The translations under genes were made by a program, and so were the position numbers. Below the pieces are notes generated by a model that saw only the letters and a list, made by a program, of their open reading frames with translations, was not told the DNA's origin and did not search any database. A stretch of 58,697 nt of DNA from Bacteroidota bacterium (GTDB lineage: Bacteria; Bacteroidota; Bacteroidia; Chitinophagales; Chitinophagaceae), in the NCBI GenBank assembly GCA_018268135.1, contig JAFDXD010000089.1, forward strand, positions 1 to 58,697, read 5' to 3'. Shown here piece by piece: positions 38,634 through 56,255 of this stretch (positions are counted from its first letter, which is position 1; each line of letters starts with the position of its first letter).

Positions 38634-38720
38634 GGAGAGTTGTCCGAGTGGTTGAAGGAGCACGCCTGGAAAGTGTGTATACGGGAAACTGTATCAAGAG
38701 TTCGAATCTCTTACTCTCCG
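38634..38720 (+). tRNA. tRNA-Ser (anticodon GGA)
   Basis: The 87-nt class II tRNA has acceptor GGAGAGT/ACTCTCC with G73 and a D arm TCC/GGA. The anticodon stem is CACGC/GTGTG (38661-38665 with 38673-38677), with loop CTGGAAA and anticodon GGA at 38668-38670. A long variable arm (ATAC/GTAT) and T arm AAGAG-TTCGAAT-CTCTT follow. The 3' CCA is not encoded. The gene is intact even though an island is inserted: everything 3' of the anticodon belongs to the left copy of the island's direct repeat. Confidence 0.97.
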
Positions 38721-38757
38721 CAAAATACAGGTTATTATTTACGCAACTTTTTAATAG
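38671..38757 (+). repeat. Island attachment repeat, left (att with tRNA 3' part)
   Basis: These 87 bases match 56169-56255 at 84 positions. The first 57 (38671-38727) are identical, and differences are only at 38728, 38735 and 38747. The repeat starts exactly after the anticodon and covers the variable arm, T arm and acceptor. It also contains the last codons of the Sel1-repeat gene. Confidence 0.95.
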
Positions 38758-40103
38758 AATTCCTTTGTTCTACCAATCCCCATAGTCTTTAGATTTTCAG
38801 CAGCCAATTTATTACCTTTTTCTTTTGCTGCACGAAAATATTTAGCTGCTTTAAAATCATCTCGTTTGACATACAGCCCACGGTTATAGAATACCCCTAA
38901 ATTATTTAGTAAAAATCCATCACTATCCTTGTCTTCATACTTTTTTAAAAGATTAAACACTTTCTCATACTCATCTTTAAGTTGTTTATTAATAACTACT
39001 GCTGAATACAGTGCAGTAAGATTGGGTAAAATTATTTCGTCGTTGGTATTAAACCCTTTTTCTACTACATCTAAAAAAGATGTTTCAGAATAGTCCAGTT
39101 CATTGTAAGCCCATGCTAAATTGTTATATCCCCAATTTTCATTCATTGATATAGCTAATTTGGAATACTTAATAACAGAATCATAATTTTTAAAAGTTAA
39201 ATTATTACCATAAAAAAAAGCAAGTTCGTTTGCAGACCAGCCATCATTTTGGGACCCTTTTTGGTAATAGTATATTGCCGAATCAAAATTCTGGGTAACT
39301 CCTTGGCCTAATTCATACATTTGCCCAATCCTACCACTGGCTCTTCCTATACCTAAATTCGAAGCTATTTTATAGTAAAAGATACCTTTATTATAATCGA
39401 TAGAAGTTCCACGCCCCAAAGAATAGCAATGTCCTAAACCTAAGGCATAATTCTGCTTTACATCATTATAGGTTTCTCCATTTTTGAAATTATCAAATGC
39501 TTTCTGATAATCTTGCGGAACTCCATGCCCATTATAATTTAACCACCCGATATTTGTATAAGCTAATCCAAAGCCCAGAGAAGCACTTAAATTGTAAAAC
39601 TTTAAAGCAGTTTTGTAATCTTTCACATCCTGATAATAAATCCCTAAATTATTTTTAGCCCAGGCTTCCATATTTCCTCCTAAAGCAGCCCTCTCCAAAT
39701 ATTTCCTTGCTATATCGACATTTTTTTCAATTCCCAACCCTATTTGATACATACGGCCTAAATAGAAGCTACAATCATAACTGCCTTTATCGGCACAGTA
39801 TTGAAAGTAAGGAATAGCTTTTGAGTATGGGTTTGTTTTTAAATCAACATTATAATAGCCGGCATAGTATAGGCTGGTGGCATAATAGTAAAGAGTAGAG
39901 TCATCCATTTCGGAAGGGCTTTTGCCCTCAATCAAAGTTTCTAAATGTAAAAAATTTGTTTTAAATGCTTCGTAATCTTTCTTCTCCTTAGCAGTTATTA
40001 TTCTGCTATAGTAATATTTTGCATCAATACTCAACTGACCGAAAGAAGCATAAAATGAGTATTGTAAAATAATCAAAATAATAATATGTTTAGTGTAGGT
40101 CAT
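38751..40103 (-). CDS. Secreted Sel1-like repeat protein
   Basis: The 450-residue protein has a signal peptide (IIILIILQYSFYASFGQ). The rest is a run of helical Sel1/TPR repeats with the A-x-x-x-Y and G-x-G patterns: LGRMYQIGLGIEKNVDIARK, LGIYYQDVKDYKTALKFYNL, IGWLNYNGHGVPQDYQKAF, LGHCYSLGRGTSIDYNKGI and IGQMYELGQGVTQNFDSAIY. Such repeats are protein-binding scaffolds. It is the last gene of the kinase operon (54 bases after the kinase gene), so a periplasmic partner of the kinase's outer domain is a reasonable guess. Its stop lies inside the left att repeat. Confidence 0.88.
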   Translation of the reverse strand: MTYTKHIIILIILQYSFYASFGQLSIDAKYYYSRIITAKEKKDYEAFKTNFLHLETLIEGKSPSEMDDSTLYYYATSLYYAGYYNVDLKTNPYSKAIPYFQYCADKGSYDCSFYLGRMYQIGLGIEKNVDIARKYLERAALGGNMEAWAKNNLGIYYQDVKDYKTALKFYNLSASLGFGLAYTNIGWLNYNGHGVPQDYQKAFDNFKNGETYNDVKQNYALGLGHCYSLGRGTSIDYNKGIFYYKIASNLGIGRASGRIGQMYELGQGVTQNFDSAIYYYQKGSQNDGWSANELAFFYGNNLTFKNYDSVIKYSKLAISMNENWGYNNLAWAYNELDYSETSFLDVVEKGFNTNDEIILPNLTALYSAVVINKQLKDEYEKVFNLLKKYEDKDSDGFLLNNLGVFYNRGLYVKRDDFKAAKYFRAAKEKGNKLAAENLKTMGIGRTKEFY

Positions 40104-40157
40104 AATCAGTTATTTAAAGATTTAGCAATAATGTTATTTTGGCTTATCAGCTTCATG

Positions 40158-42758
40158 CTAATTGCATTTGTTTAATAAATTATTCACCTCACTAGTATTT
40201 TTTATTGATTTAGCTTCTCGTAATCTGTTAAGATATGGAGGTGCACATGGGTCAATTTTATCATAAAGTTCTTTAGCTTTTTCAAGAAATTTGTAATAGC
40301 CAACATCACCACTTCCTTGTACAATAGAATTTGCTTTGGAATATTTTTCTGCTGCAAGTTGATAGAGATTACTTTTAAAGGCATTGTTGGCATCATTTAC
40401 TAAAGATTGAGCTTGAGCCTCCATTCGACTTTTTCTTTCTGATTCAGCCAATTTGCTCTGGTCAATAAATTTACTTCCCCAGTAATCCATTTTTTGTTTC
40501 ACTTGCTCTTTTTCGTTTGCAGCACTTTTGGGGAGGCTACCATATAATCCTTGGTATAAATTAAATAACTCGTCTACAGAGGATGTAGATTCCTTATTTT
40601 TTATTTCATTAAACCTATTTTTAAATTCTGTTTTCCATTTATTATCATTCTTTAACGCATCAGTTTTGGAGATAGTAGATAATGAAGTACCTGTGTCATT
40701 TAATTTGCTTGGCGAAGTGTTTATTATAGAAGTATCTGCCACCATAGCTGGCAATGAATCTGTACTTACTATGATAGGCTGCTCTTTAACTGAATTGCTT
40801 TTTTCTCTGAAATACAGAAAGGCTAATGCCGCAACTATAGCAGCCAAAATGCCTCTGTAAATATATTTTTCCTTATTCCTTTTCGGTATTATTTTTTCTT
40901 GTTCTGATGGGATTAGTATTGTTTCACTTGTTGTGTTTTTTGAGGGTCTAATTACTACAGTAGCCTCTTGTTTTGTCTTTAGTGTCTTTTCAATTGTTAT
41001 TTTAAAAGTATTCAGTTTATTGTGTGGAAGATTTAACCTGTCTATTTTTTGAGAAAGGCTTTTGTAGTCATCTGCAATATTCTGGAGCTTAATATCAAAA
41101 TCCTCGTAATTGTAATTTAGCTTGTTTAATTGAGTATCTATTGTGTTTAACTCATTAGCTGCATTATTATACTGCAATACATTATCTTGATTGAGCAGAT
41201 AAATTATTGCCAAATCCTTTTTTGAAAGTGTCTGTAAGTTTATTGATTGTTTAAGCCCTATGGCTTTATGATAATCTTCATTGTTGAATGCAATAATCAA
41301 TTCAGCCAACGCCTTTGTATGTCTTTCCTGCTCTTTTTCTTGAATAGCCTTTAATAAACTAATAGCCTCAACATGATTTGGGTCTATTGAGAGTATGCTA
41401 TTGAAAGTATTTTTTGCAGCTTCGTAGTGATTATTAGAAATAAACGCTTTCCCTTCTATTAACAACCCATCAATTTCTTTTAGTTTATTTATTTCGGTAA
41501 GTTGCTGTGTGCAGTGGTTAAGATTTGTTTTGACCTCTACATTGTCGGGTTGTATTTCTAATGCTTTTTCAAATTCTCGTATAGCTTTGCTATACTCTTT
41601 GTTGTTTTGCCATTCAACCCCTTTTGAAAAATGGTTTTCAAATTCAATCTTTAATCTATCCTTATTTAGTTCTGTATTAGCAATCTTTTTATAATCGGCT
41701 AATGATTTTGTAGGCAGGTAATTGGTTTCAGTAGTTTCAATTTTATTAACTGCTAACTGAAAGTTTTTTGATGCTATTAGCTTCCCTATTTCGCTTACCT
41801 GTTTTATATATTCTGTTTCTTTTACCAAAGCACCTTCAAACTCTGCTGCAGATTTAAACCTTTCGTGAAACATAGGAGCCAATGACTTAGCCAATACTGC
41901 ATCTAAATAATCGCTTACTCCATTATTATTTACAAATGTAGAGGGAGGTATTAACTTTTCCCTGCCAGTACTTAAAAGGCTACTTAAAGGTGGTTTTTGC
42001 CCTGTTAATAAATGATAAAGGGTAGCACCTGCTGCATAGGTATCAAAAGTTGCATCAAAAGTCTTTAAATTATCAATATCTCCTTGTTCATTCGGAGCAT
42101 AGTACTTTTTCATTCCAATTATTAATTGGCTTGTTCTACCAATTATTTTACCAGTATCGTCATAGCTTTGTGATACTCCAAAGTCAATCAATATTGCTGC
42201 ATCTTTGTCTTTGCTTATTAAAACATTACTTGGCGTAATATCCAAGTGTAATTTTTTTCTATCGTGTATATGTATTAATGCAGATAATACTTGGTTAATA
42301 TATTTAAGTGCTTTAGGCTTTTCTATTTTCCCTGCTTTTATAAGCAACTCTTCCAAATCAGTACTTTCTACATAATCCATTACCATATATGCAGTTCCAT
42401 TCTCCTTAAAAATATCCCTCGTTCTTACAATATTTGGGTGGTTTAGGCTTCGCAATTTTTTTCCTTCATCCAATTGATTTTCTACCAATTTGCTAAACTC
42501 AATACGTTTTTCAGTATTTGAAATATTGACTAATCCAGTTTTTAAATCTCTTTGGCAATAGTCATTATAATAAAGTTCTTTTATTACAACAGTATCAGGT
42601 GCTTTAGCCTCTACATATTCAGGCTTATCACTATAGCCTGTTTGCCTGTAGTAGCCTATTTCTTCTGCTAAATAGGTGATGCCAAAACCACCCTGCCCAA
42701 TTACTTTTTTAATGCGATATTGCTTGTTATTTAATATGGTGTTTGCTGGCAGGTGCAT
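40158..42758 (-). CDS. Transmembrane Ser/Thr protein kinase with TPR segment
   Basis: The 866-residue Hanks-type kinase has glycine loop GQGGFGITY (21-29), a Lys in VVIKEL (K60), catalytic loop HLDITPSNVL (171-180; HLD in place of HRD), DFG at 192-194 and an APNE motif near 221. After residue ~310 come TPR-like helices (FSKGVEWQNNKEYSKAIREF and on) and coiled coil, a transmembrane helix (GILAAIVAALAFLYF, about 635-649) and a ~215-residue outer helical domain ending in a Cys. It should phosphorylate cytoplasmic targets, probably the two FHA proteins' partners, opposed by the PP2C gene in the same operon. Its ATG overlaps the preceding stop (TAATG). Confidence 0.93.
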   Translation of the reverse strand: MHLPANTILNNKQYRIKKVIGQGGFGITYLAEEIGYYRQTGYSDKPEYVEAKAPDTVVIKELYYNDYCQRDLKTGLVNISNTEKRIEFSKLVENQLDEGKKLRSLNHPNIVRTRDIFKENGTAYMVMDYVESTDLEELLIKAGKIEKPKALKYINQVLSALIHIHDRKKLHLDITPSNVLISKDKDAAILIDFGVSQSYDDTGKIIGRTSQLIIGMKKYYAPNEQGDIDNLKTFDATFDTYAAGATLYHLLTGQKPPLSSLLSTGREKLIPPSTFVNNNGVSDYLDAVLAKSLAPMFHERFKSAAEFEGALVKETEYIKQVSEIGKLIASKNFQLAVNKIETTETNYLPTKSLADYKKIANTELNKDRLKIEFENHFSKGVEWQNNKEYSKAIREFEKALEIQPDNVEVKTNLNHCTQQLTEINKLKEIDGLLIEGKAFISNNHYEAAKNTFNSILSIDPNHVEAISLLKAIQEKEQERHTKALAELIIAFNNEDYHKAIGLKQSINLQTLSKKDLAIIYLLNQDNVLQYNNAANELNTIDTQLNKLNYNYEDFDIKLQNIADDYKSLSQKIDRLNLPHNKLNTFKITIEKTLKTKQEATVVIRPSKNTTSETILIPSEQEKIIPKRNKEKYIYRGILAAIVAALAFLYFREKSNSVKEQPIIVSTDSLPAMVADTSIINTSPSKLNDTGTSLSTISKTDALKNDNKWKTEFKNRFNEIKNKESTSSVDELFNLYQGLYGSLPKSAANEKEQVKQKMDYWGSKFIDQSKLAESERKSRMEAQAQSLVNDANNAFKSNLYQLAAEKYSKANSIVQGSGDVGYYKFLEKAKELYDKIDPCAPPYLNRLREAKSIKNTSEVNNLLNKCN

Positions 42759-42964
42759 TAACTTGTTTTTTTATCCTCCTTTTTATCTTCTTTAAAGTTG
42801 TTGATATTTGGGAATGCTTTTTCTATCAATGTTGCAAGCAATCCTTTTGCAGGTTTTGATTTATCTTTATTTCCTTTTAAAAGGCGGAGTATTCCATTAG
42901 CTATTAATAAGCCTACTACAATGACCCCTATTTGCCATACCGGCGGAAGTTCTAATAATATCAT
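42758..42964 (-). CDS. 68-residue single-span membrane protein in the kinase operon
   Basis: One hydrophobic helix (IGVIVVGLLIANGILRLL, about 12-29) precedes a strongly basic then acidic tail (KGNKDKSKPAKG, KEDKKEDKKTS). It is coupled to the kinase by a TAATG overlap, which argues that it is translated and stoichiometrically linked to it. I recognise no family. Confidence 0.72.
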   Translation of the reverse strand: MILLELPPVWQIGVIVVGLLIANGILRLLKGNKDKSKPAKGLLATLIEKAFPNINNFKEDKKEDKKTS

Positions 42965-42995
42965 AAATAATTAAATTTTGGTAGTAAAACTATTA

Positions 42996-43478
42996 CTATG
43001 CGCTTGGCTGTTTGAAACTCCAGCCTTTTTTTATAATTTCAGCGAATAAAGGATGTTTATTCATAAGTTCGGGTTTGTAGGGATATACATTTGAATTTCT
43101 GCATTCCTCCTTATAAATATTTAGCCCAAGTATGTTTCCAAGAATGGTTAATAACATCCCTCCCAAAAGTGGAAACCAAAAGAAGCACCAATAAGAAGCA
43201 TCGTGTAAGAATATTGCAAAACAGGCTGCGGCTATTCCTGCTATTATGCCTGTTATTAAGTATTTAAATGCAATTTTTACCTGTTTTATTTCAGATGCTT
43301 TATGCGTTTCTTTGCATATAGAACAAATAGGAATTTCAAATTCTTTAACTTCATAAGCTACTTGTCTTGTACTCCCCGAGGTGCTTCTTTTTGTTACATG
43401 AAATATTTTTGCATCATACATTTCTGTACCCTCTCTTTTGGAGCAAAATATACATTTGGATGTTGTAATGTCAATCAT
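42996..43478 (-). CDS. Zinc-ribbon membrane protein in the kinase operon
   Basis: I start at the ATG at 43478 (160 residues); the longer frame would begin at TTG. The N-terminus carries CIFCSKREGTE and, 40 residues later, CSICKETHKA, a likely four-Cys zinc ribbon. Two transmembrane helices follow (FKYLITGIIAGIAAACFAIF and FFWFPLLGGMLLTILGNILG), then a basic tail. No known family. It lies between the PP2C phosphatase and the small membrane protein in the same operon. Confidence 0.75.
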   Translation of the reverse strand: MIDITTSKCIFCSKREGTEMYDAKIFHVTKRSTSGSTRQVAYEVKEFEIPICSICKETHKASEIKQVKIAFKYLITGIIAGIAAACFAIFLHDASYWCFFWFPLLGGMLLTILGNILGLNIYKEECRNSNVYPYKPELMNKHPLFAEIIKKGWSFKQPSA

Positions 43479-43512
43479 GTTTTTGGAGTTTAGCAATTAA
43501 TAAAAATCATCG

Positions 43513-44229
43513 TTATTCAATCACTTTAATAAATATTCCTGAATAGTTATCATTTGAATATATTGAGCACATTTTTTCAATGCCTGTACATATATCATTA
43601 AGCGTATTTTTAGATAAAAAATTGGCTTCCATATAAGCATTGTCAATTCCTTCTAAAATCCCATCGCTACATAGTATAAAAAAATCATTAGCCTGTATAT
43701 CTTCTATCACTTTTATATCTGCCTCTGTGTGTTCGCCAGTAGTTTGTATGGCACGGGTTATTACATTTTTTTTAGGATGGTTTTTTGCTTCTTCCTGGCT
43801 AATAAAGCCACTTGCGATATACTCATTTACCAAGCTATGGTCTTGTGTTTGAAAAATAACCTGCCCATCCCTTATATGATAAACCCTGCTATCTCCAATA
43901 TGTGCTATTGTAGCATTGTTGTTGCTTAAACTTAAAAGAGCAAGTGTAGTAGCCATCCCTTCGCTTTCAGGGTTTACTTCGATGAAGTTGGCTAACTCAT
44001 TTTCTGCAAGGCTAACGGCTTTTTTAATTTCAACTTCCCCTGGCGTTTCAATATTCCTGATGAATTCTGAAATTGTTTCACAAGCTAATTTGCTGGCTAC
44101 TTCTCCTTTGTTATTTCCTCCAACGCCATCACAAACTATAAATAAGCCTTGCTCCGGAAAACTTGATACAAAGTCTTCATTATTCTGCCTTTTACCAATT
44201 TGTGATATTTGTTGAATGTTAATTTGCAT
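43513..44229 (-). CDS. PP2C-family Ser/Thr protein phosphatase
   Basis: The 238-residue stand-alone phosphatase has the PPM metal motifs: RQNNEDF (E18, D19), FIVCDGVGG (D34, G35), GMATTLALL, AHIGDSRVYHIRDG, TQDHSLVNEYIASG, ITRAIQ, LCSDGILEG (D189) and NDNYSG (D227, N228). It should remove phosphate from targets of the operon kinase. Its start overlaps the WG-repeat gene's end by 11 bases, so the two are coupled. Confidence 0.95.
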   Translation of the reverse strand: MQINIQQISQIGKRQNNEDFVSSFPEQGLFIVCDGVGGNNKGEVASKLACETISEFIRNIETPGEVEIKKAVSLAENELANFIEVNPESEGMATTLALLSLSNNNATIAHIGDSRVYHIRDGQVIFQTQDHSLVNEYIASGFISQEEAKNHPKKNVITRAIQTTGEHTEADIKVIEDIQANDFFILCSDGILEGIDNAYMEANFLSKNTLNDICTGIEKMCSIYSNDNYSGIFIKVIE

Positions 44230-45178
44230 TTTTTATAATTTCATTCTTACTGTTAATGTAATACTCACTTTCTCCATACTTTACCAATGCCTTACCTTCA
44301 TAAAAATATCTTGCCCAATCATAAATCATAGGAATGACGATTTTGCCTTCTTTATTAATGAAGCCATATTTATTATCTTTAGATACTACTGCATAGCCTT
44401 CCGAAAAATCTTCGGCTATATCATAAATAAGAGGAACAATTTGATTGTTTTGCAAATCAATAAAACCGTACTTCTGTCCATCAGACACTATTGCTCTTCC
44501 CTCGCTAAAAGAGAAAAGGTATTTATAAATAAGTGGTATTTGAACGTTGCCCGACTTTGAAATACATCCAGTTTTGCCGTTTAGTCTTACAAGCGCATAG
44601 CCATTTTTGAAATCAGAAGCATCATCAAATTGGAGGGGAACTGTTATTGACCCAGACTCATTAATAAACCCATATTTATTATCTTTTGAAACCAATGCCA
44701 TTCCTTCGCAAAATTTTCGGGCTGTTGAGAATTGGAAATCTAAGAGCATTTTTCCAGTTGTTGCTGAAAAGAATCCATATAACCGATTCAATCCTTGAAC
44801 GAAACATAGATTTGTGTTATTAAATAGTCCAACACCTATACAGTCAAGTTTTTTTGTCCAATTGTAGTTACTATCAATAATCCCAATTTCACCATCCCCA
44901 TTTTGATTTCTTGCCCAACCATACTTCTTATTCTTTGCCAAACTCAAAACATCATAGTGTTCTAAGTTTTTTAATTTTAAAGTAGTAGCTGTAGAATTAT
45001 CTGTATTGATGCAAATCATATAACTTTTTAAATATAGTTTGGCATCTTCAACTTTATAAAATGAAATACTTAACAGACTATCGCTTTTAGTAAGATATTC
45101 ATCGCATTTATAACTCTGGCCTTCTGCCAAAATAGCAAGTATGACTATGCCAGTAAGCAACGTTAGTCTTTTCATCAT
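44219..45178 (-). CDS. Secreted WG-repeat protein
   Basis: I start at 45178, where ATGATGAAAAGA precedes a signal peptide (LTLLTGIVILAILAEGQ) two bases after the upstream stop. The mature protein has about six WG repeats: NKYGFINESGSITVPLQFD, KTGCISKSGNVQIPLIYK, QKYGFIDLQNNQIVPLIYD and NKYGFINKEGKIVIPMIYD are the clearest. WG repeats form beta structures of unknown function and are common in signalling and conflict loci. It is coupled to the PP2C gene by overlap. Confidence 0.9.
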   Translation of the reverse strand: MMKRLTLLTGIVILAILAEGQSYKCDEYLTKSDSLLSISFYKVEDAKLYLKSYMICINTDNSTATTLKLKNLEHYDVLSLAKNKKYGWARNQNGDGEIGIIDSNYNWTKKLDCIGVGLFNNTNLCFVQGLNRLYGFFSATTGKMLLDFQFSTARKFCEGMALVSKDNKYGFINESGSITVPLQFDDASDFKNGYALVRLNGKTGCISKSGNVQIPLIYKYLFSFSEGRAIVSDGQKYGFIDLQNNQIVPLIYDIAEDFSEGYAVVSKDNKYGFINKEGKIVIPMIYDWARYFYEGKALVKYGESEYYINSKNEIIKNAN

Positions 45179-45180
45179 TG

Positions 45181-45678
45181 TTATTGTTTTAAACAACCCG
45201 ATTTATACAATTGCGATATGCCATCTGCTGCAAACTTGTCTTTTGCTCTTACATAAGCGTCATTGTACCAGCTATATGCTACTTCACACATTTCTTTATC
45301 AGTTTTATCAGTAACTAATTTCAATTTTGCATCCTGCATTTGAAACATATACCCAAGCATGTTCAATTGTGTAACCGATAAAATATTGTTTATCCAAATA
45401 TCCCCTAACTCTCCATATTCATCTTGAAAGAGTATCAAGGCAGTTTGATGAGAAGTATAGGCGTCCATATAGTTGCCTTTCTTAAAGAAAGATTCCATTT
45501 TGGATAGCTCTGCATTAATTTCTTTAAATACCTTAGGCGAAGCATTTTTTAGAATAGCTTTTACAGTAGCCACTGGAACTGGCTTAAAAGGCTTATTAAA
45601 ATATGCTGGCGGTTTATTGATTTGTGCATAACTATTTAATGCTCCACTTAAAAAAAGGAATAAAATTATTTTTTTCAT
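45181..45678 (-). CDS. Small secreted helical protein, function unknown
   Basis: The 165-residue protein has a signal peptide (KIILFLFLSGALNSYAQ). The mature part is helical with two late Cys residues (EMCEVAYSWYNDAYVRAK and KSGCLKQ at the end), which may pair. No family recognised. It is ten bases after the zinc-ribbon FHA gene and two bases before the WG-repeat gene. Confidence 0.72.
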   Translation of the reverse strand: MKKIILFLFLSGALNSYAQINKPPAYFNKPFKPVPVATVKAILKNASPKVFKEINAELSKMESFFKKGNYMDAYTSHQTALILFQDEYGELGDIWINNILSVTQLNMLGYMFQMQDAKLKLVTDKTDKEMCEVAYSWYNDAYVRAKDKFAADGISQLYKSGCLKQ

Positions 45679-45688
45679 AATTACACTT

Positions 45689-46291
45689 TTATTTGTTTAG
45701 TAAGACGGTTTTAGCAAAGCCTTTTTGCGCTATTATTTTTGTTGCCTCCAAAGCAGAGTTCACAACCGATGATTTAATTTTAAATTCAACTTTAGTTTGC
45801 CCGGCTTGTATAACATCGCCATCTTTTAAGGAGTATTTTTCTTTGCCTATTGTAAGTACATCTTGCATTGATATTGTGTTTACAAACGTATGATTAGTGC
45901 TTTTGCAGTCAGATAATTTGTAAGAAGAAAAACCTTTCCCAGTCATTGCTTCAATAATAAAATGGTTTCTGCTCATAGTCATATCCTTCGTTTCCACCAT
46001 AATATCACAAGGCTTGCTATTGCTTTTCCGTCCAATAACATAGTTCCCTGCTATAATCTCAAATGTTTGCAGTGGTGCCTGTTCATCATGTACAATAAGC
46101 CAAGCTGTCGGTTCAATTTGCTGTTTTGTTAACACCACTGTTTTATCCAACATGCCATTCACTTTTTCAAATACAGGTACAAATGATACTTTGCACTTTG
46201 GACAAGTAATTTTAGGCAAGCCAACCTTAAAAGAAGCATCCGGCACTGGTAACATAGCTTCGCATTGTGGGCATTTTAGTATCATAATCAA
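45689..46291 (-). CDS. Zinc-ribbon plus FHA domain protein
   Basis: The 200-residue cytoplasmic protein has an N-terminal zinc ribbon (CPQCEAMLPVP, then CPKCKVSFVPVF; MJ0042-like) and an FHA domain (about 75-170: YVIGRKSNSKPCDIMV, MSRNHFIIEA, SDCKSTNHTFVN, LKDGDVIQAGQTKVEF). FHA domains bind phosphothreonine, so it should read phosphorylation made by the operon kinase. A second start (46285) is possible. Confidence 0.92.
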   Translation of the reverse strand: MIMILKCPQCEAMLPVPDASFKVGLPKITCPKCKVSFVPVFEKVNGMLDKTVVLTKQQIEPTAWLIVHDEQAPLQTFEIIAGNYVIGRKSNSKPCDIMVETKDMTMSRNHFIIEAMTGKGFSSYKLSDCKSTNHTFVNTISMQDVLTIGKEKYSLKDGDVIQAGQTKVEFKIKSSVVNSALEATKIIAQKGFAKTVLLNK

Positions 46292-46300
46292 TTTCTCTTT

Positions 46301-47434
46301 TTAATAGTCTTCCATGTTTGTTAAATGGGCATTGTGGTCGGTTTCCGGGGTGATATTATCGTCAGCAAAATTGTTGTTATCTGCTTCTCCCATTTGGTGC
46401 TGAAACCGCATCATATCTTCTTGTGATAAGTTCACCTCTTGTCCATCAGCACTTACCATATGTACACTACCATCTTCGTTTCGTGCCATGGATAAATCAA
46501 AATTTCCATCTCCATCTAGGTCAGTTTTCACAATGTGTTCGCCATTTACTAAAAAATGGGCAATGTGTACTTTATTTCCAGCCCCATCATCTACCCATTC
46601 CTCTTTCATCATGTGTTCGCCAGTTTGCGTTGTTTCTGTATCTGCAGTTGTCGTGGTTTCGCTTTCATTTGAAGTTGTAGGTATGGTGCTATTGCCGCCA
46701 TCAATCTTTACAATATCTACATCATTTGTGCTTATACTATGGTCTTCTATTTCTGTATCACCAACGGATGCAATGAAGTCATGTTTTTGCTCCACAGTCA
46801 TTGCGTTAGTTTCCTCCGATGTATAAGTATTGTAAGATTTTCCGTGCCATTCAAATACACCGCCAGGCCCCACTTCTTCTCTTGCAATTGCAAAAGCATC
46901 TTTAAAACTCATATCGTCTGTAATATTTGTAGCTACAGGTGCTTCATCATGAATGACAATTACGGGGCTATCAATATGGTGATGAGCTGTAGTGTGGTTT
47001 TCAGTATCTGAATGGGAAGTTTCATGATATTTCTCCATAACATTCACATACATAGTATGCTTTTCTTCGGGGCTTAATTTGTCCATCTCATCTTTGTAAA
47101 CAGTGCCAAATACTTTACCATGCCAGGTAAAATAGCCATTGGGGCCACCTGCCTCGTGCCTTGCATTTTTAAAGGCTTCACCAAAACTCATTTCATCATT
47201 CACGGATGTGATTTCTTTAGGTTCAATACCTACATCTGGCTTTTCATGAATTTTTCCTGTGTGCGTTTCGGGGGTGTTGGGAGACATACCCATAAATAAG
47301 GTTGATATTGCTACGCCGCCTGCAATACCTGCTACACCAAAGCCAGCTCTTGTAGCAATTTTTTGCAAAGCTTCTTTACTAAGGTGCAAAGGTTTTTTAT
47401 TGTTACCTACTATAACCGTTTCTTCGTTTGACAT
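46301..47434 (-). CDS. Membrane protein with two WHG repeats and an EF-hand-like loop
   Basis: The 377-residue protein has a glycine-rich transmembrane segment (AGFGVAGIAGGVAISTLFMG, about 30-49) and a large acidic, His-rich outer region. Two ~50-residue repeats are plain: MSFGEAFKNARHEAGG...YFTWHGKVFGTVYKDE...LSPEEKHTMY, and MSFKDAFAIAREEVGPGG...FEWHGKSYNTYTSEE...MTVEQKHDF. Near the C-terminus DLDGDGNFDLS fits a calcium-binding EF-hand loop. I recall similar F-x-W-H-G repeats in Bacteroidota proteins of unknown role. The order suggests a sensor or scaffold for the FHA/kinase module. Confidence 0.85.
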   Translation of the reverse strand: MSNEETVIVGNNKKPLHLSKEALQKIATRAGFGVAGIAGGVAISTLFMGMSPNTPETHTGKIHEKPDVGIEPKEITSVNDEMSFGEAFKNARHEAGGPNGYFTWHGKVFGTVYKDEMDKLSPEEKHTMYVNVMEKYHETSHSDTENHTTAHHHIDSPVIVIHDEAPVATNITDDMSFKDAFAIAREEVGPGGVFEWHGKSYNTYTSEETNAMTVEQKHDFIASVGDTEIEDHSISTNDVDIVKIDGGNSTIPTTSNESETTTTADTETTQTGEHMMKEEWVDDGAGNKVHIAHFLVNGEHIVKTDLDGDGNFDLSMARNEDGSVHMVSADGQEVNLSQEDMMRFQHQMGEADNNNFADDNITPETDHNAHLTNMEDY

Positions 47435-47464
47435 GATTGTATTTTTATTGTTTAAAAAATAATT

Positions 47465-47872
47465 TTATTGTTGTAAAGAACCGTATTTATTATTACCAGT
47501 ATCCCCTTTTTTAAATGTTAAAATGAAACTATAAAGTGGGATTAAAATATGCCAACCACTTTTATTAATATCATGCATACGGCGAATACCGAGAAATAAG
47601 ATTGGAATAAAAAAAATAATGACTGGTAAAATAAAGCTTATCAGTATTGTTATATAAAAATGAGAATGCCAAAAATAATTGGTGTAATAACACAGGAAGC
47701 GAATCCCCATGTTACATCCAATTGGAGCATCGATGATTACTGGAAGTGTAAGAAAAAAGAAATATGGAATAAAAAAAAGAAAATAAACAAAAACACAAAT
47801 GAAGTAATTTTTTCTGCTTGTTCTACCTTTATGTGTAAATTGTTTCTTTACAGTTTTAAGAAAGTTGCTCAT
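47465..47872 (-). CDS. DUF805 membrane protein
   Basis: The 135-residue protein has about four hydrophobic helices and the DUF805 ends: GRTSRKNYFICVFVYFLFF at the start, GIRRMHDINKSGWHILIPL and KKGDTGNNKYGSLQQ at the end. The function is unknown. It lies between the FHA-membrane gene (ten bases) and the WHG-repeat gene (30 bases). Confidence 0.9.
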   Translation of the reverse strand: MSNFLKTVKKQFTHKGRTSRKNYFICVFVYFLFFIPYFFFLTLPVIIDAPIGCNMGIRFLCYYTNYFWHSHFYITILISFILPVIIFFIPILFLGIRRMHDINKSGWHILIPLYSFILTFKKGDTGNNKYGSLQQ

Positions 47873-47882
47873 AATATATAAT

Positions 47883-48575
47883 TTATTGCTTACTGTATTT
47901 TACACCACATCTAAAACATTTTCCCTGGTTGTTATAACTTTGCCAGGGTACATTGCCAAGCTGTGTTCTACACTGATTATTCGGACAAACATATTTAACC
48001 CTAAACTCTTCGTCTAATTGCATTAGTTCTTCAATCGGGCTCATATTACCCGTAAATAACATTGCGATTGTACTGCCTAAAACAGAAAATACGATATAGT
48101 TAGACTTGATGACCTTACTTGCAGCCGAGTTTTCACTTACAATAAATTGTAAAACATACCATACTATCAGCGGCGCCAGTGTTATGCCTGACCTAACAAG
48201 AGTAGTACGTTTCTGATGTGCTTTTGTAATTGCTATCCTATCCTTTTGATATTTATCCCAAACCTGCTTTAGTGTATCAAACTCTTGCGTATAGTCTTTT
48301 GGGTCTGATTTAGGCTGTTGTGTATTATCCTTTTTTAACCCGAATATTTCTATAAGATTGACAATTTTGTATTGGGAAAGCCTTAATTCATCTTTTAAAG
48401 AAATGGTAGATCTATTTATTCTGTAACCGTTTACGAAAGTTCCATTTGTAGAATTCAAATCTTCAACTAAAAAATTTCCACTATCAATTAAAGTAACTCT
48501 TGCATGATGTCCGCTAATATCCCTTTCTGAATATTTTACATCATTATCATCCGCTCTCCCAAAAGTTTTTGTCAT
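47883..48575 (-). CDS. FHA domain protein with two membrane helices and a zinc ribbon
   Basis: The 230-residue protein begins directly with an FHA domain (FGRADDNDVKY, ISGHHARVTLI, VEDLNSTNGTFVNGYRI). A linker, two hydrophobic helices (SGITLAPLIVWYVLQFIV; NYIVFSVLGSTIAMLFTG) and a C-terminal four-Cys ribbon (CPNNQC and CFRCGVKY) follow. It may recruit phosphorylated proteins to the membrane. It is 14 bases after the CHAP-like gene. Confidence 0.92.
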   Translation of the reverse strand: MTKTFGRADDNDVKYSERDISGHHARVTLIDSGNFLVEDLNSTNGTFVNGYRINRSTISLKDELRLSQYKIVNLIEIFGLKKDNTQQPKSDPKDYTQEFDTLKQVWDKYQKDRIAITKAHQKRTTLVRSGITLAPLIVWYVLQFIVSENSAASKVIKSNYIVFSVLGSTIAMLFTGNMSPIEELMQLDEEFRVKYVCPNNQCRTQLGNVPWQSYNNQGKCFRCGVKYSKQ

Positions 48576-48589
48576 TTATAAAATATGTT

Positions 48590-49165
48590 TTAACAGTTTA
48601 GTGCTGGATTTAACTTTCGGTAAATTTCAACCCTTGTATCACCAGCATTTACAATTATTTCCCAAACACTTTCATTTGGGCATCCACATTTACTACTCCA
48701 CTTTGTTTTATCAGGGGTTTGGTTAGCCCCGATTAGCTGTATTGTTATTGTGCCATTAGCGTTTTTCCAGGCATTGCCTACAAACGCCACATGCCCATAT
48801 TGCCCAACTCCAAAATTGCCAGCCTTTATTACTATCACATCTTTGTTTTGAGGCAAACTTGATGCTGAAAAGTTTTTTAAACTGTAACCTTTATTAGGCA
48901 ACCATGATTTTCCCCAATCTTTCGCATTGGGGAAACCGGGAGCACTAGTAACACCTTGCCCGATTATCCTTATAGCAACATATTCTGTACACCAACATCC
49001 ACCCCAATCAGGTCTTCCTTTTGTTACCCAAAATGGCCCGTAATTTCCTGCTGCTCCAAAACCTAAATCCGCTTCACCTTCATTGGCTACAATACTCTTT
49101 TGGCAACTATACAAACCGACCGCTATTACTAAATAGCAAAAAACATAAACGATTGACTTTTTCAT
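48590..49165 (-). CDS. CHAP-like cysteine amidase/peptidase lipoprotein
   Basis: The 191-residue protein has a lipoprotein signal (YVFCYLVIAVGLYSC; Cys21). The mature part resembles a CHAP domain: candidate nucleophile in GGCWCTEYVAIRI (C57 or C59), GQYGHVAFVG with His125, and IQLIGANQT with a following polar residue (N148). CHAP enzymes cut peptidoglycan cross-bridges or glutathionyl-type amides. It is the first gene of the 12-gene operon, 29 bases after a predicted -7 box. It may be a cell-wall-remodelling output. Four Cys residues late in the protein may form disulfides. Confidence 0.75.
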   Translation of the reverse strand: MKKSIVYVFCYLVIAVGLYSCQKSIVANEGEADLGFGAAGNYGPFWVTKGRPDWGGCWCTEYVAIRIIGQGVTSAPGFPNAKDWGKSWLPNKGYSLKNFSASSLPQNKDVIVIKAGNFGVGQYGHVAFVGNAWKNANGTITIQLIGANQTPDKTKWSSKCGCPNESVWEIIVNAGDTRVEIYRKLNPALNC

Positions 49166-49273: not shown

Positions 49274-49657
49274 TTATTTTTTAGCCTTTTTCTCCTGAAA
49301 GAAAAATAGCAAATCGTCTTTTTTGCTTTTTGATACTTTCAAGGTTTTACCAGTAAGAAGTATCACCCAACCATCATCGCCCCTTATATAACTTTTTACT
49401 TTATTCAGATTAACAATAGTGGAGTTATGAATTCTAATAAATGGTTCAGTTTTCAACTCATCTTCGTAGTAGCCAAGATTTTTGCTGGAGGTGATTTTTT
49501 TGTTTTTACTTAGATAAATATGGGTGTAGTTTATTTCAGCCTCTAAGTAATCAATATCGGTTGCATCTACAAACTCAAAGCCCTCCGTTGTAGGCACAGA
49601 AAGCCTATTAAGTTTTGATTTTTTTATTGCAATAATATCTGTATTCAATTTGCTCAT
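49274..49657 (-). CDS. Stand-alone LytTR DNA-binding regulator
   Basis: I start at the ATG at 49657 (127 residues); an open frame to 49687 exists. The protein is a single LytTR domain without receiver: RLSVPTTEGFEFVDATDIDY, YLEAEINYTHIYL, FIRIHNSTIVNLNKVKSYIR (the R-x-H-x-S/N-x-x-V-N pattern of LytTR) and WVILLTGKTLKVSKSKKDDL. It should bind paired direct repeats about one and a half to two turns apart. Such a pair lies upstream at 49790-49823. It is likely a local regulator. Confidence 0.9.
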   Translation of the reverse strand: MSKLNTDIIAIKKSKLNRLSVPTTEGFEFVDATDIDYLEAEINYTHIYLSKNKKITSSKNLGYYEDELKTEPFIRIHNSTIVNLNKVKSYIRGDDGWVILLTGKTLKVSKSKKDDLLFFFQEKKAKK

Positions 49658-49789
49658 TTGTAACAAACGAATGAAGTCAAAAAGCAATCTCTTTTGCTCA
49701 ATAACTATGTATTAGGTAGAAAAGAAATAGCGAGAAACTTCACCATTATACAAATATGTAAAATGGCGATAAGTTATTGGGGACAGGCC

Positions 49790-51035: not shown

Positions 51036-51791
51036 TTAAGAGGAGATAGTTACTTTATCCAAAAACTCCTTTTTAAAAGCTCGGCCTATTTCAAATATTT
51101 TACCATCATCCATAATGATAGTATTACTGGTGGAAGCAATCTTTTTTATCCTTTGCAGATTAACTGCCTTGCTTTGGCTAATGCGGGTAATAAAATTCGA
51201 TTTTAAGGAATTAACCAATTCAAGCAAACTTTTTGCTAATACGTAACTTTTTTCATCGGTGTAAAGCCGTACTAAGGGGCGTTCTGTCTCAATATATTTT
51301 ATAGCGTTTATTGCAATTCGGTCAAAGATTTGTTTTCCGTCTGTTTTTAAGAAAATATGACCTCGTAAAACAAAAGCATTTTTATAGCCATCAATTACTA
51401 AGTCGTTTTCCCTGGCAAAGTCATCTAACGCCATTTCAACAAAGTGCCAAAGTTGACCATCCGAAAAATTAGCTTTCGGTATGTAGTTAAACGGCTTGGT
51501 TTCTTTTGCATTAGTATAATATTCTTTATGGTTTGCGGCATTAAATTGTGAAAGAAAAATAAAAGGCACTCTATCTTTTTTCAAGATATAATTGGCAACG
51601 TCAATCCCTGTTTCTTTACCTTTTAATTCTATATCAATAAAAACAAGGTCTGGCTTTTTAGCTTTAAACAGATCAAGAGCATCTTGGGCGGTTTTGGCTA
51701 TACCAGTAATAGTACACCCATGCCTTTTAAGTGTATTAGCTAAATCTTTTGCAACTATTTGTTCATCCTCTACAATAAGTATTTTATACAT
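51036..51791 (-). CDS. LytTR-family response regulator
   Basis: The 251-residue protein has a receiver domain (ILIVEDEQ with acidic E8/D9, phosphoacceptor D53 in DLVFIDIEL, switch Lys in NYIPKANF) and a C-terminal LytTR domain (KYIETERPLVRLYTDEKSYV, FITRISQSKAVNLQRIKKI). It should act as a phosphorylation-controlled transcription factor. Its ATG overlaps the histidine-kinase stop by one base (TAATG), so the pair is one unit. Confidence 0.93.
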   Translation of the reverse strand: MYKILIVEDEQIVAKDLANTLKRHGCTITGIAKTAQDALDLFKAKKPDLVFIDIELKGKETGIDVANYILKKDRVPFIFLSQFNAANHKEYYTNAKETKPFNYIPKANFSDGQLWHFVEMALDDFARENDLVIDGYKNAFVLRGHIFLKTDGKQIFDRIAINAIKYIETERPLVRLYTDEKSYVLAKSLLELVNSLKSNFITRISQSKAVNLQRIKKIASTSNTIIMDDGKIFEIGRAFKKEFLDKVTISS

Positions 51792-54389: not shown

Positions 54390-55983
54390 ATGGAAATCAA
54401 AGCCCGTCAAAAGCAGGGCAAATCCTTAAACATAGATTTAAACACAGGTAAGGTTTTAAAGAAATCTGTTGTTGCCAATACATACGAAAAGCAAGCAATC
54501 ATATATTGCCATGCAAGCACTGTTAATCAAGTAACAGAAGGGCTTGGCTTAAAGTCCCAAGAGTGAATGTGCAGAAAACGATGTGAAACAAATAACGTTA
54601 AAGTTGTTGGAGTTTTTTTAGATGAATGAATATTTAGTGCTAAATTAGAACGTCCTGATATTGATGGAGCAATTGCATTTTTGGAAAAAGAAAACAAAAC
54701 ATTTGTAAAAGTCCTCTACTTTGTTTGTACAGAAGAAAGTAGTATATCAAGGGCTGATAATCTGATGGACACATTAATGCTGGACACTAAAATAAGAGAA
54801 ACAGGCGTAGATATTATTTACACATTTGGTAACGTAGATACTTCAACTGATGAAGGTAAACTGCTCAATCAATTTAAGTTTATTATTGCCAGTGAGGTAA
54901 GGTAGAAAGAATTAGGTTAGGGTACTGGCCTTTTCCGAGAATGCCATTGTGATACAAAAAGGTGAAATATGAGAATAAATCGTTAGTCGAAATTGACGAG
55001 GTGAAATGACCAATTATTAAGAAAGGGTTAGAGCTTTATGCTAACGATATTATTCAAACTCAAAGCCACTTGCTCCAATACCGAAAAGAATGTTGATTAA
55101 CCACAAGCGAAGCAAGGTATAATGGGGGACTTTACTTTTCATTCATAGGTAAAACACTTGATATACAAAGGTTGTATTTCTATGCAGGGTATATTCTTTT
55201 TCCAAAACGGGAAATTAACGAACCAATAGAAGCACAACACATGGCGTTGATAACTTTAGATATAGTTCAAAAGATTTTCAAAAAGGCATACAGCCCAAAA
55301 GCTAAGTTCAAAATGAAAACATCAAAGGAGAAGGAATGTTTTATTCTTAGATGATGTATAAAATGTTCTGATTGTTGATATACGATTTTGTGCCGACATA
55401 GTAAAAACTGGCAATGAAAACAATAAGCTTACTATGGTTGTTGCTCAAGAAAATGCCCAAACAGGGCTAATTTTCCACAGGAAAAATTTGAGAATGAGTT
55501 TAAAACATTCTTAGAGGATATTTCCTTACCTGCAAAAATTTTGACCGTAATTGAACGTATTATTTTAGGCAATATTGAAAACAAAAAACAGACGAAACAA
55601 AACAAAAAATGTTGAAGAAGGGCAGAATAGTGCAGATTGAAAACAGAATGAAAGAAATTGAGGACTTTTTGCCCAAAGCAAAAATTGCTAAACTGTACGA
55701 AACGTTAGAAAATGAATAGGCAAATCTTGACCAGGAGAAAATACAATTGCAAGAACAGTTACAAGATAATGACTATGGCGAAAAGAGTGTAAAAGATTTG
55801 CTGGAAAAGGTAAAGGGGATATTCATTAACCCACTTGCATTTTGGGAATCAGGCAACGAGGATATGAGGCAGCTTTTATTAATAGTTCGGTTCGGGGATA
55901 AATTATACCACACAAAAAAGCAGGGTTTCCGAACTAAAGAAAATGCTGGTATGCACCAGCATTTCAAAGGTATTTCAGAGTGA
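54390..55983 (+). pseudogene. Decayed large serine recombinase
   Basis: Fragments in shifting frames line up with a ~500-residue serine recombinase. The N-terminus is QAIIYCHASTVNQVTEGLGL, with the catalytic Ser kept but Arg of the usual Y-x-R-x-S replaced by His. FSAKLERPDIDGAIAFLEK, ETGVDIIYTFGNVDTSTDEG and GKLLNQFKFIIASEVR come next. A middle fragment (EPIEAQHMALITLDIVQKIF) and C-terminal fragments (NPLAFWESGNEDMRQLLL, FGDKLYHTKKQGFRTKENAG) follow. At least two in-frame stops (near 54565 and 54628) and several frame changes make it non-functional. It is on the plus strand, opposite to the signalling genes. Confidence 0.85.
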
Positions 55984-56168: not shown

Positions 56169-56255
56169 AAGTGTGTATACGGGAAACTGTATCAAGAGTT
56201 CGAATCTCTTACTCTCCGCAAAATATAGGTTACTATTTACGCAATTTTTTAATAG
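56169..56255 (+). repeat. Island attachment repeat, right (tRNA-Ser 3' fragment)
   Basis: It matches 38671-38757 at 84 of 87 positions. The first part (56169-56218) is the tRNA 3' half (variable arm, T arm, acceptor) without the 5' half or promoter, so it is not a functional tRNA. It is the original 3' end displaced by integration, since it adjoins core gene tatD. Confidence 0.95.

Follow-up and report, generated by a model that had tools for sequence, protein, structure and literature searches.

In PknB/Stp-type kinase-phosphatase pairs and the FHA proteins GarA and OdhI, FHA domains dock on Thr motifs that lie close to the kinase or at the ends of proteins, and in the TerY-P triad a vWA protein is found together with a kinase and a PP2C phosphatase. 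Bacterial caspases have mostly been discussed as cytosolic death effectors. In the excerpted text of PMC5813230, the threonine-phosphorylation pathway of the type VI secretion system (T6SS) consists of PpkA, PppA and Fha, and the vWA/MoxR and GTPase-centred conflict systems, so far as the excerpt of Kaur et al. (2020, PMC7159879) covers them, feature a kinase-PP2C-vWA neighbourhood and caspase-bearing proteins. The locus considered here belongs to a member of the Chitinophagaceae in the Bacteroidota (assembly GCA_018268135.1, contig JAFDXD010000089.1) and lies in the window, by which is meant the whole stretch of 58,697 nucleotides that was analysed. It encodes a Ser/Thr kinase, a PP2C phosphatase, two FHA proteins (FHA1 and FHA2), a protein with two small WHG domains, and a LytTR regulator. 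At the level of sequence, these six genes constitute a conserved cassette, and the exported proteins that accompany them are variable. Circuits of kinase, phosphatase and FHA protein are well known; what appears to be new here is the recurrent gene order across gut and environmental Bacteroidota, and the coupling to a domain unrecognised by Pfam and, in many cases, to an exported-looking caspase. No description of the cassette was found in open-access full text, to which the literature search was confined, so that this novelty is provisional.

As in the T6SS pathway, a membrane Ser/Thr kinase, a PP2C and an FHA reader share one locus, and a membrane complex is the likely target (PMC5813230, excerpted text). 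The present system differs from that pathway in its WHG protein, its LytTR regulator, its exported cysteine hydrolases and in having two FHA proteins that carry Cys pairs; no linked T6SS structural genes are found among the twelve operon proteins and no TssC in the genome. The TagH-type FHA model (TIGR03354) has a cut-off of 120.25 bits, of which the two FHA proteins reach 22.4 and 35.9. The FHA docking proposed below, on Thr motifs close to the kinase or at the ends of proteins, is like that of the PknB/Stp and GarA/OdhI systems. In contrast to the PASTA kinase/Stp1 pair, however, there is no PASTA match, NF033483 reaches 127.3 of 450 bits and NF033484 186.6 of 230, and the OdhI model gives at best 31 of 200 bits. 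Unlike the TerY-P triad, the twelve operon proteins include no vWA match, one being found beside the Runella rosea copy described below. The kinase-PP2C pairing, the caspase, and the vWA gene beside that plasmid copy recall the conflict systems as excerpted from Kaur et al. (PMC7159879), whereas neither MoxR nor GAP1 is matched among the operon proteins.

Core genes and their conservation

On the minus strand, all twelve open reading frames (ORFs) of 38751-49165 are present with the spacing and overlaps that an initial annotation of this DNA had described: the kinase start at 42758 is the stop of a 68-residue ORF, and the PP2C and WG ORFs overlap by 11 bases at 44219-44229. That annotation had also named a kinase writer, a PP2C eraser and two FHA readers, and Pfam domains were found for all four. 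The core genes and the exported hydrolase of the window are as follows.

49274..49687, minus strand: LytTR-only regulator at the operon head (PF04397, E 1.6e-18)
48590..49165, minus strand: CHAP-domain exported protein (PF05257, E 7e-11), with a hydrophobic segment at 4-22 and, by eye, a lipoprotein-like signal
47883..48575, minus strand: FHA2 (PF00498, E 2.6e-16), with FHA domain, transmembrane segment 129-147 and C-terminal Cys pairs
46301..47434, minus strand: WHG protein, with N-terminal tail, transmembrane segment 30-48, two WHG domains (80-138, 173-230) and a DxDxDG-like tail
45689..46291, minus strand: FHA1, zinc ribbon and FHA domain (PF00498, E 3e-13)
43513..44229, minus strand: PP2C phosphatase (PF13672, E 9e-18; NF033484 186.6 bits, cut-off 230), no transmembrane segment predicted
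40158..42758, minus strand: Ser/Thr kinase (Pkinase, E 2.1e-31), with catalytic domain, TPRs, one transmembrane segment (632-650) and an outer C-terminal domain

The zinc ribbons attributed to both FHA proteins are upheld in part. That of FHA1 is a Pfam match below threshold (2e-4, 21.5 bits, cut-off 29.3), whereas FHA2 has only Cys pairs; two such pairs are present in 60 of 62 FHA2 relatives. A sequence search of the PDB with FHA1 gave no match at 1e-3. The WHG protein has no Pfam match above cut-off and no NCBIfam match at E 0.1, and its small WHG domain, for which the predicted structure has a pLDDT (predicted local distance difference test) of 78, is unrecognised in Pfam and PDB searches.

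A scan of 84,980 species genomes, for which four WHG sequences were aligned as the query, yielded 138 confirmed stretches, of which 80 were kept, giving 78 loci. These were fetched by the WHG domain alone, no other core gene being used, and were counted with a PP2C profile trimmed of fused caspase. The ORF caller keeps the longest ORF, so that some genes are hidden by opposite-strand ORFs, and counts of order and distance refer to 75 loci, the WHG ORF being unlabelled in L137, L147 and L154. By record title, 77 of the 78 loci are from Bacteroidota; the other (L108), a metagenome bin, is titled Clostridium sp. The kinase is present in 69 loci, PP2C in 69, FHA1 in 67, FHA2 in 61 and LytTR in 47, with two or more kinase ORFs in 39. 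FHA1, FHA2, PP2C and kinase all occur in 51. The concern voiced with the initial annotation, that the genes might stand together nowhere else, is not borne out: at least three of these four occur in 67 of the 78 loci.

The core also recurs in order. PP2C directly follows FHA1 in 63 of 68 cases, and the commonest arrangements are LytTR-FHA2-WHG-caspase-FHA1-PP2C (16 loci) and the same without the caspase (11). Labelled ORFs lie overwhelmingly within six ORFs of WHG rather than farther away (65 versus 1 for FHA1, 65 versus 1 for PP2C, 55 versus 4 for FHA2, 44 versus 0 for the caspase), and WHG, FHA2 and kinase matches adjoin one another in relatives. Within the same genus, L052 reads FHA2-WHG-FHA1-kinase-PP2C. 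In another genus of the same family, Limnovirga soli (L075, NZ_WHPF01000011.1) has LytTR-CHAP-FHA2-WHG-FHA1-WG-WG-PP2C-kinase, with 55-76% identity to the window for CHAP (76%), FHA2, WHG, FHA1 and PP2C, and 66% over 473 aligned residues for the kinase. Among four genomes fetched from the family of Runella (f87), three have FHA2-WHG-FHA1-PP2C, one of them with a second WHG, and the fourth has WHG-FHA2-FHA1. The search for the same order in other Bacteroidota that had been suggested at the outset thus finds the core in order in other families, and for this reason the cassette is not a chance pile-up.

The unit is larger than the twelve genes first delimited. The LytTR regulator at 49274-49687, which is syntenic and 75% identical in Limnovirga soli (L075/L082), is on that sequence evidence part of it, and the unit further includes the response regulator and histidine kinase listed below. 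Conversely, the WG, Sel1, DUF805 and CHAP proteins, which had been made part of the module's definition, are accessory rather than defining. Sel1 occurs in only 9 of the 78 loci, WG in 6 and CHAP in 1, and neither Sel1 (p 0.77) nor WG (p 0.24) is enriched near WHG, on which ground these two are treated as accessory. The 115 accessory ORFs fall into 49 clusters, 39 of them singletons. That accessory genes differ so much between loci, and that WHG stands without the core in three of them, would suit a loose pile of generic signalling parts with no one function; the recurrent order (16 and 11 loci) and the near-constant succession of FHA1 and PP2C speak against it, and such a pile is considered very improbable. 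A chance cluster was likewise rejected on the conserved core order.

Catalytic residues, membrane arrangement and the Thr motif

The enzymes of the cassette appear intact. DGxGG and GDSR are kept in all 69 PP2C proteins, and of 146 kinase ORFs 131 keep both HxD and DFG; contig-end fragments account for several of the others. A pattern designed for a late Asp of PP2C fitted just 2 of 69 proteins, but it was a poor one, as it misses even the DNYSG of the window. In the FHA domains, the SxxH phospho-binding pattern is found in 61 of 68 FHA1 and 44 of 62 FHA2 proteins.

In WHG proteins, the mean charge is +2.1 before the Gly-rich segment and -2.2 after it, and is higher before in 77 of 79. This positive stretch before and negative stretch after the membrane segment suggest that the WHG domains lie outside. 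In 33 of 62 relatives, FHA2 has a hairpin of two membrane segments instead of one, and a C-terminal transmembrane segment is present on PP2C in 54 of 67 relatives, none being found in the PP2C of the window. In comparison with Limnovirga soli, the kinase is 80% identical over its catalytic part and 34% over its outer part, so that by sequence the outer domain diverges faster than the catalytic part.

The exported hydrolase differs from locus to locus. A caspase is present in 44 of the 78 loci, and Pfam confirmed the assignment (PF00656) for one fusion protein and for four caspases that stand alone. Its His and Cys motifs are kept in 45 of 45 caspase-bearing ORFs of these loci, and an N-terminal hydrophobic, signal-like segment is seen in 40 of 43 stand-alone caspases. 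In two Runella proteins PP2C is fused to a caspase. A papain was likewise confirmed by Pfam in L057; papain or CHAP, the latter being the type of the window, occurs in a few loci.

A short Thr motif recurs in the tails of WHG proteins as N-E-x-T-(I/V/Q)-(Y/L/I/F), with the Thr mostly at residue 5-8. A loose pattern matches 51 of 79 non-redundant tails, against a mean of 4.8 and a maximum of 12 in 1000 shuffles. Of 87 WHG ORFs, 57 have the strict form, [DE]xT[IVQ][IVLYF], within their first 40 residues, as do only 4 of the 653 unlabelled ORFs of at least 100 residues at the same loci. In the kinases, it is found between catalytic domain and transmembrane segment in 43 of 131 (mean 3.4 and maximum 9 in 500 shuffles), as compared to 2 of 131 in the catalytic part and 5 of 102 in the outer part, and it is also present in 9 of 68 FHA1 linkers, for which shuffling gave at most 6. 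No motif was seen in nine control kinases, where 0.2 would be expected, a number too small to tell. The strict matches of the window are WHG T6 (NEETVIV), kinase T600 and FHA1 T51, with loose matches at kinase T613 and FHA1 T195. From its sequence and placement, the motif, which is found mainly in Bacteroidales, is likely to be a phospho-site read by the FHA domains.

The island, and links to type VI secretion and defence

The operon had been thought to sit on an island, and the sequence on both sides bears this out. Its boundaries are marked by the following features.

38634..38721, plus strand: tRNA-Ser(gga), the island insertion site (ARAGORN), its 3' part repeated at 56169-56255
38671..38757, plus strand: left 87-base direct repeat, att-like, 96.6% identical to 56169-56255
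54681..54905, plus strand: possible decayed serine recombinase fragment (PF00239 Resolvase, E 0.008, below cut-off)
56169..56255, plus strand: right 87-base direct repeat, att-like, a copy of the tRNA-Ser 3' part

The two repeats are 17,498 bases apart. Among 29 MurF loci of the same genus (L182-L210), TatD lies directly 3' of MurF in eight (L182, L183, L190, L197, L200, L201, L207 and L209), 5' in five, and outside the fetched stretch in 16. MurF, tRNA-Ser and TatD are contiguous in all five that were scanned (L182, L183, L190, L201 and L207), which represent the empty site; the tRNA-Ser has the orientation of the window in L182 and L183 only. Given the repeats of the tRNA 3' end and the empty site in relatives, the sequence between 38671 and 56255 (17.6 kb) is an insertion, a single block of foreign DNA that carries the whole system, including the LytTR gene, response regulator and histidine kinase. 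No working integrase was found, and the stretch from the last large ORF to the right repeat holds only short ORF fragments. To the eye, those on the plus strand at 54390-55983 resemble a decayed serine recombinase, as they may indeed be; one of the four searched gave the weak Resolvase match listed above.

The remaining genes of the unit lie on the minus strand.

38751..40103, minus strand: Sel1-repeat protein (PF08238, E 1.3e-31), with a homologue at the same position in L084
42758..42964, minus strand: 68-residue small membrane protein, hydrophobic segment 2-20, no Pfam match at E 1
42996..43496, minus strand: 166-residue protein with two transmembrane segments and a CxxC close to the N-terminus, best Pfam match below cut-off
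44219..45196, minus strand: WG-repeat protein (PF14903, E 9.7e-53), hydrophobic segment 5-23
45181..45678, minus strand: 165-residue protein, signal-peptide-like N-terminus by eye, no Pfam match at E 1
47465..47872, minus strand: DUF805 membrane protein (PF05656, E 1.5e-16)
51036..51791, minus strand: LytTR response regulator, syntenic homologue in L084
51791..53809, minus strand: TPR histidine kinase, syntenic homologue in L084

The Sel1 protein is probably exported, as judged by eye from its N-terminus, where the hydropathy scan marks no segment; the WG protein is probably exported as well. Some gene starts are uncertain, and the TTG start listed for the WG gene is probably too early. The LytTR and two-component genes and the tRNA-Ser repeats were absent from the initial annotation, as were the caspase of relatives (44/78) and the common Thr motif.

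Elsewhere, in Bacteroides caecigallinarum (L094, 3835-6003), one protein joins a kinase to the DUF805 domain that is free-standing in the window. One recurrent cluster of accessory proteins comprises 28 ORFs in 23 loci (such as L094 8102-9166, L118 8039-9094 and L107 2577-3635); the two members scanned contain BspA-type leucine-rich repeats, and that of L107 has, by eye, a signal-like N-terminus. The WHG proteins of L152 (9566-10567) and L157 (9290-10480) have a transmembrane-like segment and an acidic, DxDxDG-like tail, and no FHA, PP2C or kinase is labelled there.

The distribution of the cassette is patchy, WHG matches being found in 7 of 395 genomes sampled from the class, 11 of 396 from the order and 6 of 395 from the phylum; these samples overlap, include the genome of the window and hold some weak matches. 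Two records came from collections of plasmids and phages, a plasmid of Runella and an unverified scaffold of 5 kb that bears the name of a phage. On the Runella rosea plasmid (NZ_CP030851.1; L211, 1-7864), independent annotation gives VWA, FHA, hypothetical (the WHG protein), FHA, PP2C and caspase, followed by a WG gene on the other strand. The scaffold, MT838606.1 (L212, 'Bacteriophage sp.', from human faeces), has LytTR-FHA2-WHG-FHA1-PP2C, and may be bacterial DNA, since the N-terminus of its WHG protein is nearly that of Segatella copri L151.

The island-borne, patchy distribution and the frequent caspase raise the question as to whether the cassette is an anti-phage or programmed-death system, in which the kinase would sense infection and a phospho-relay would release a caspase or CHAP executor. 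In PADLOC-DB 2.0.0, the kinase domain matches the PD-T4-6 defence kinase models and PP2C matches PDC-M21C. Yet these two matches may be generic to their folds, the other eight of the ten window proteins scanned have no PADLOC match, and most of the caspases appear to be exported and not cytosolic. A defence role is regarded as unlikely.

A further explanation is that the cassette is a Bacteroidota version of the T6SS threonine-phosphorylation pathway, evolved to control the assembly of T6SSiii, copies such as that in the window being detached or serving another machine. TssC (PF17541), which is matched in none of 14 control genomes, is found in 12 of 28 cassette-carrying genomes. In G444 (contig C18) it lies 15.5 kb from WHG, with ClpV-like, VgrG-like, PAAR, TssF and TssG genes between or beside them, and in Runella aurantiaca (G299, contig C45) the distance is 17.5 kb and genes of ClpV-like and VgrG-like type are present. 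On the other hand, no TssC was found in the window's own genome, which is 100% complete by the computed figure, or in 15 other carriers of the 28, including Limnovirga soli, Larkinella rosea, Larkinella terrae and Segatella copri, and neither FHA protein reaches the TagH cut-off. The VipB model (PF05943) detected E. coli among the controls but scored 0 of the 28 genomes, even those that carry T6SSiii; because G444 has TssF and TssG genes and yet no match, PF05943 misses T6SSiii and is uninformative, and PF17541 was used instead. A T6SS-linked branch of the cassette therefore exists, and in some hosts the cassette may control a T6SS, but the link is not general, and this explanation is rated unlikely. 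A plain T6SS control locus was rejected for the window's genome, in which no TssC was found.

The two genomes in which the cassette stands beside T6SSiii clusters are Spirosomaceae (L177 with L077, and L178 with L079), and in the first a PAAR gene also carries an Ntox46 domain. The initial annotation had proposed a stand-alone module free of secretion genes. The domain search found none among the twelve proteins, and no TssC was found in the genome; the two Spirosomaceae neighbourhoods qualify the proposal.

A candidate phospho-switch controlling a periplasmic hydrolase

Co-conservation, active-site motifs, a likely membrane arrangement, the placement of the Thr motif and the island can all be read from the sequences. 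The preferred reading, to which we give about even chances, is a mobile Bacteroidota switch of kinase, phosphatase and FHA proteins that would assemble a membrane complex and thereby control a periplasmic hydrolase. We infer sensing, motif phosphorylation, FHA docking, transmission through WHG and hydrolase control as its steps. The kinase would sense the envelope through its fast-diverging outer domain and phosphorylate ET(I/V)-type Thr residues at two places, next to its own membrane segment and in the cytoplasmic WHG tail, with FHA1 as a further substrate in the window. FHA1 and membrane-bound FHA2 would dock on the phospho-Thr residues, so that a complex would form with the single-pass WHG protein at its centre; PP2C would dismantle it. 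The outer WHG domains would signal the state of this complex through the inner membrane, and the output in the periplasm would be an exported cysteine hydrolase, CHAP in the window and caspase or papain elsewhere, and the LytTR genes would set expression. What probability lies beyond this switch falls mostly to T6SS-type control or defence.

Several observations weigh against such a switch. In three of the 78 loci (L133, L152 and L157), WHG is found but none of the four core genes is, although L133 is only 3 kb. SxxH is absent from 7 of 68 FHA1 and 18 of 62 FHA2 proteins, so that some FHA readers may have lost or changed their binding, and the N/S-G pattern is found in only 28 of 68 FHA1 and 36 of 62 FHA2. 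The transmembrane segment of WHG is weakly hydrophobic, 47 of 87 falling below the threshold. In the PP2C-caspase fusions, the hydropathy scan marks no transmembrane segment, a signal-like stretch between the domains being visible by eye only. Caspase and CHAP are different fold families, so that their common output slot is one of class, and CHAP could be an ordinary peptidoglycan hydrolase.

The Thr motif also calls for caution. Its pattern was chosen after some tails had been seen, and the strict form is found in 51 of 67 Bacteroidales-like WHG tails but in only 7 of 30 from other lineages. Among six previously unused tails, drawn from five genomes or records (L162 and L171 being two WHG proteins of one contig), it is present in one, that of R. 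rosea. Of the cultured carriers Limnovirga soli, Larkinella rosea and Larkinella terrae, only the first has it in the WHG tail. In L163 (WHG 1144-2343), one of the other five of the six, three copies (ETEETVV) lie in the C-terminal half, predicted to be outside, and none in the N-terminal tail. In the window, the loose pattern further picks out T7 of the kinase and a single site in either LytTR protein, none of which is counted in favour of the switch. Given the one in six unused tails and the difference between lineages, the motif is retained with a weight that depends on lineage.

A bolder form of the proposed switch, which we put forward only tentatively, is that it represents a new class of transmembrane phospho-switch, widespread in Bacteroidota, including gut Prevotella/Segatella and Bacteroides, with FHA readers on a WHG scaffold releasing or activating a periplasmic caspase-like protease. 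The cassette offers concrete targets in a single Thr of the WHG tail and one or two of the kinase, together with both FHA domains and the hydrolase. If this bolder form is correct, Thr phosphorylation in the cytoplasm would drive regulated proteolysis outside the inner membrane, and an exported caspase under phospho-control would be a new use of bacterial caspases.

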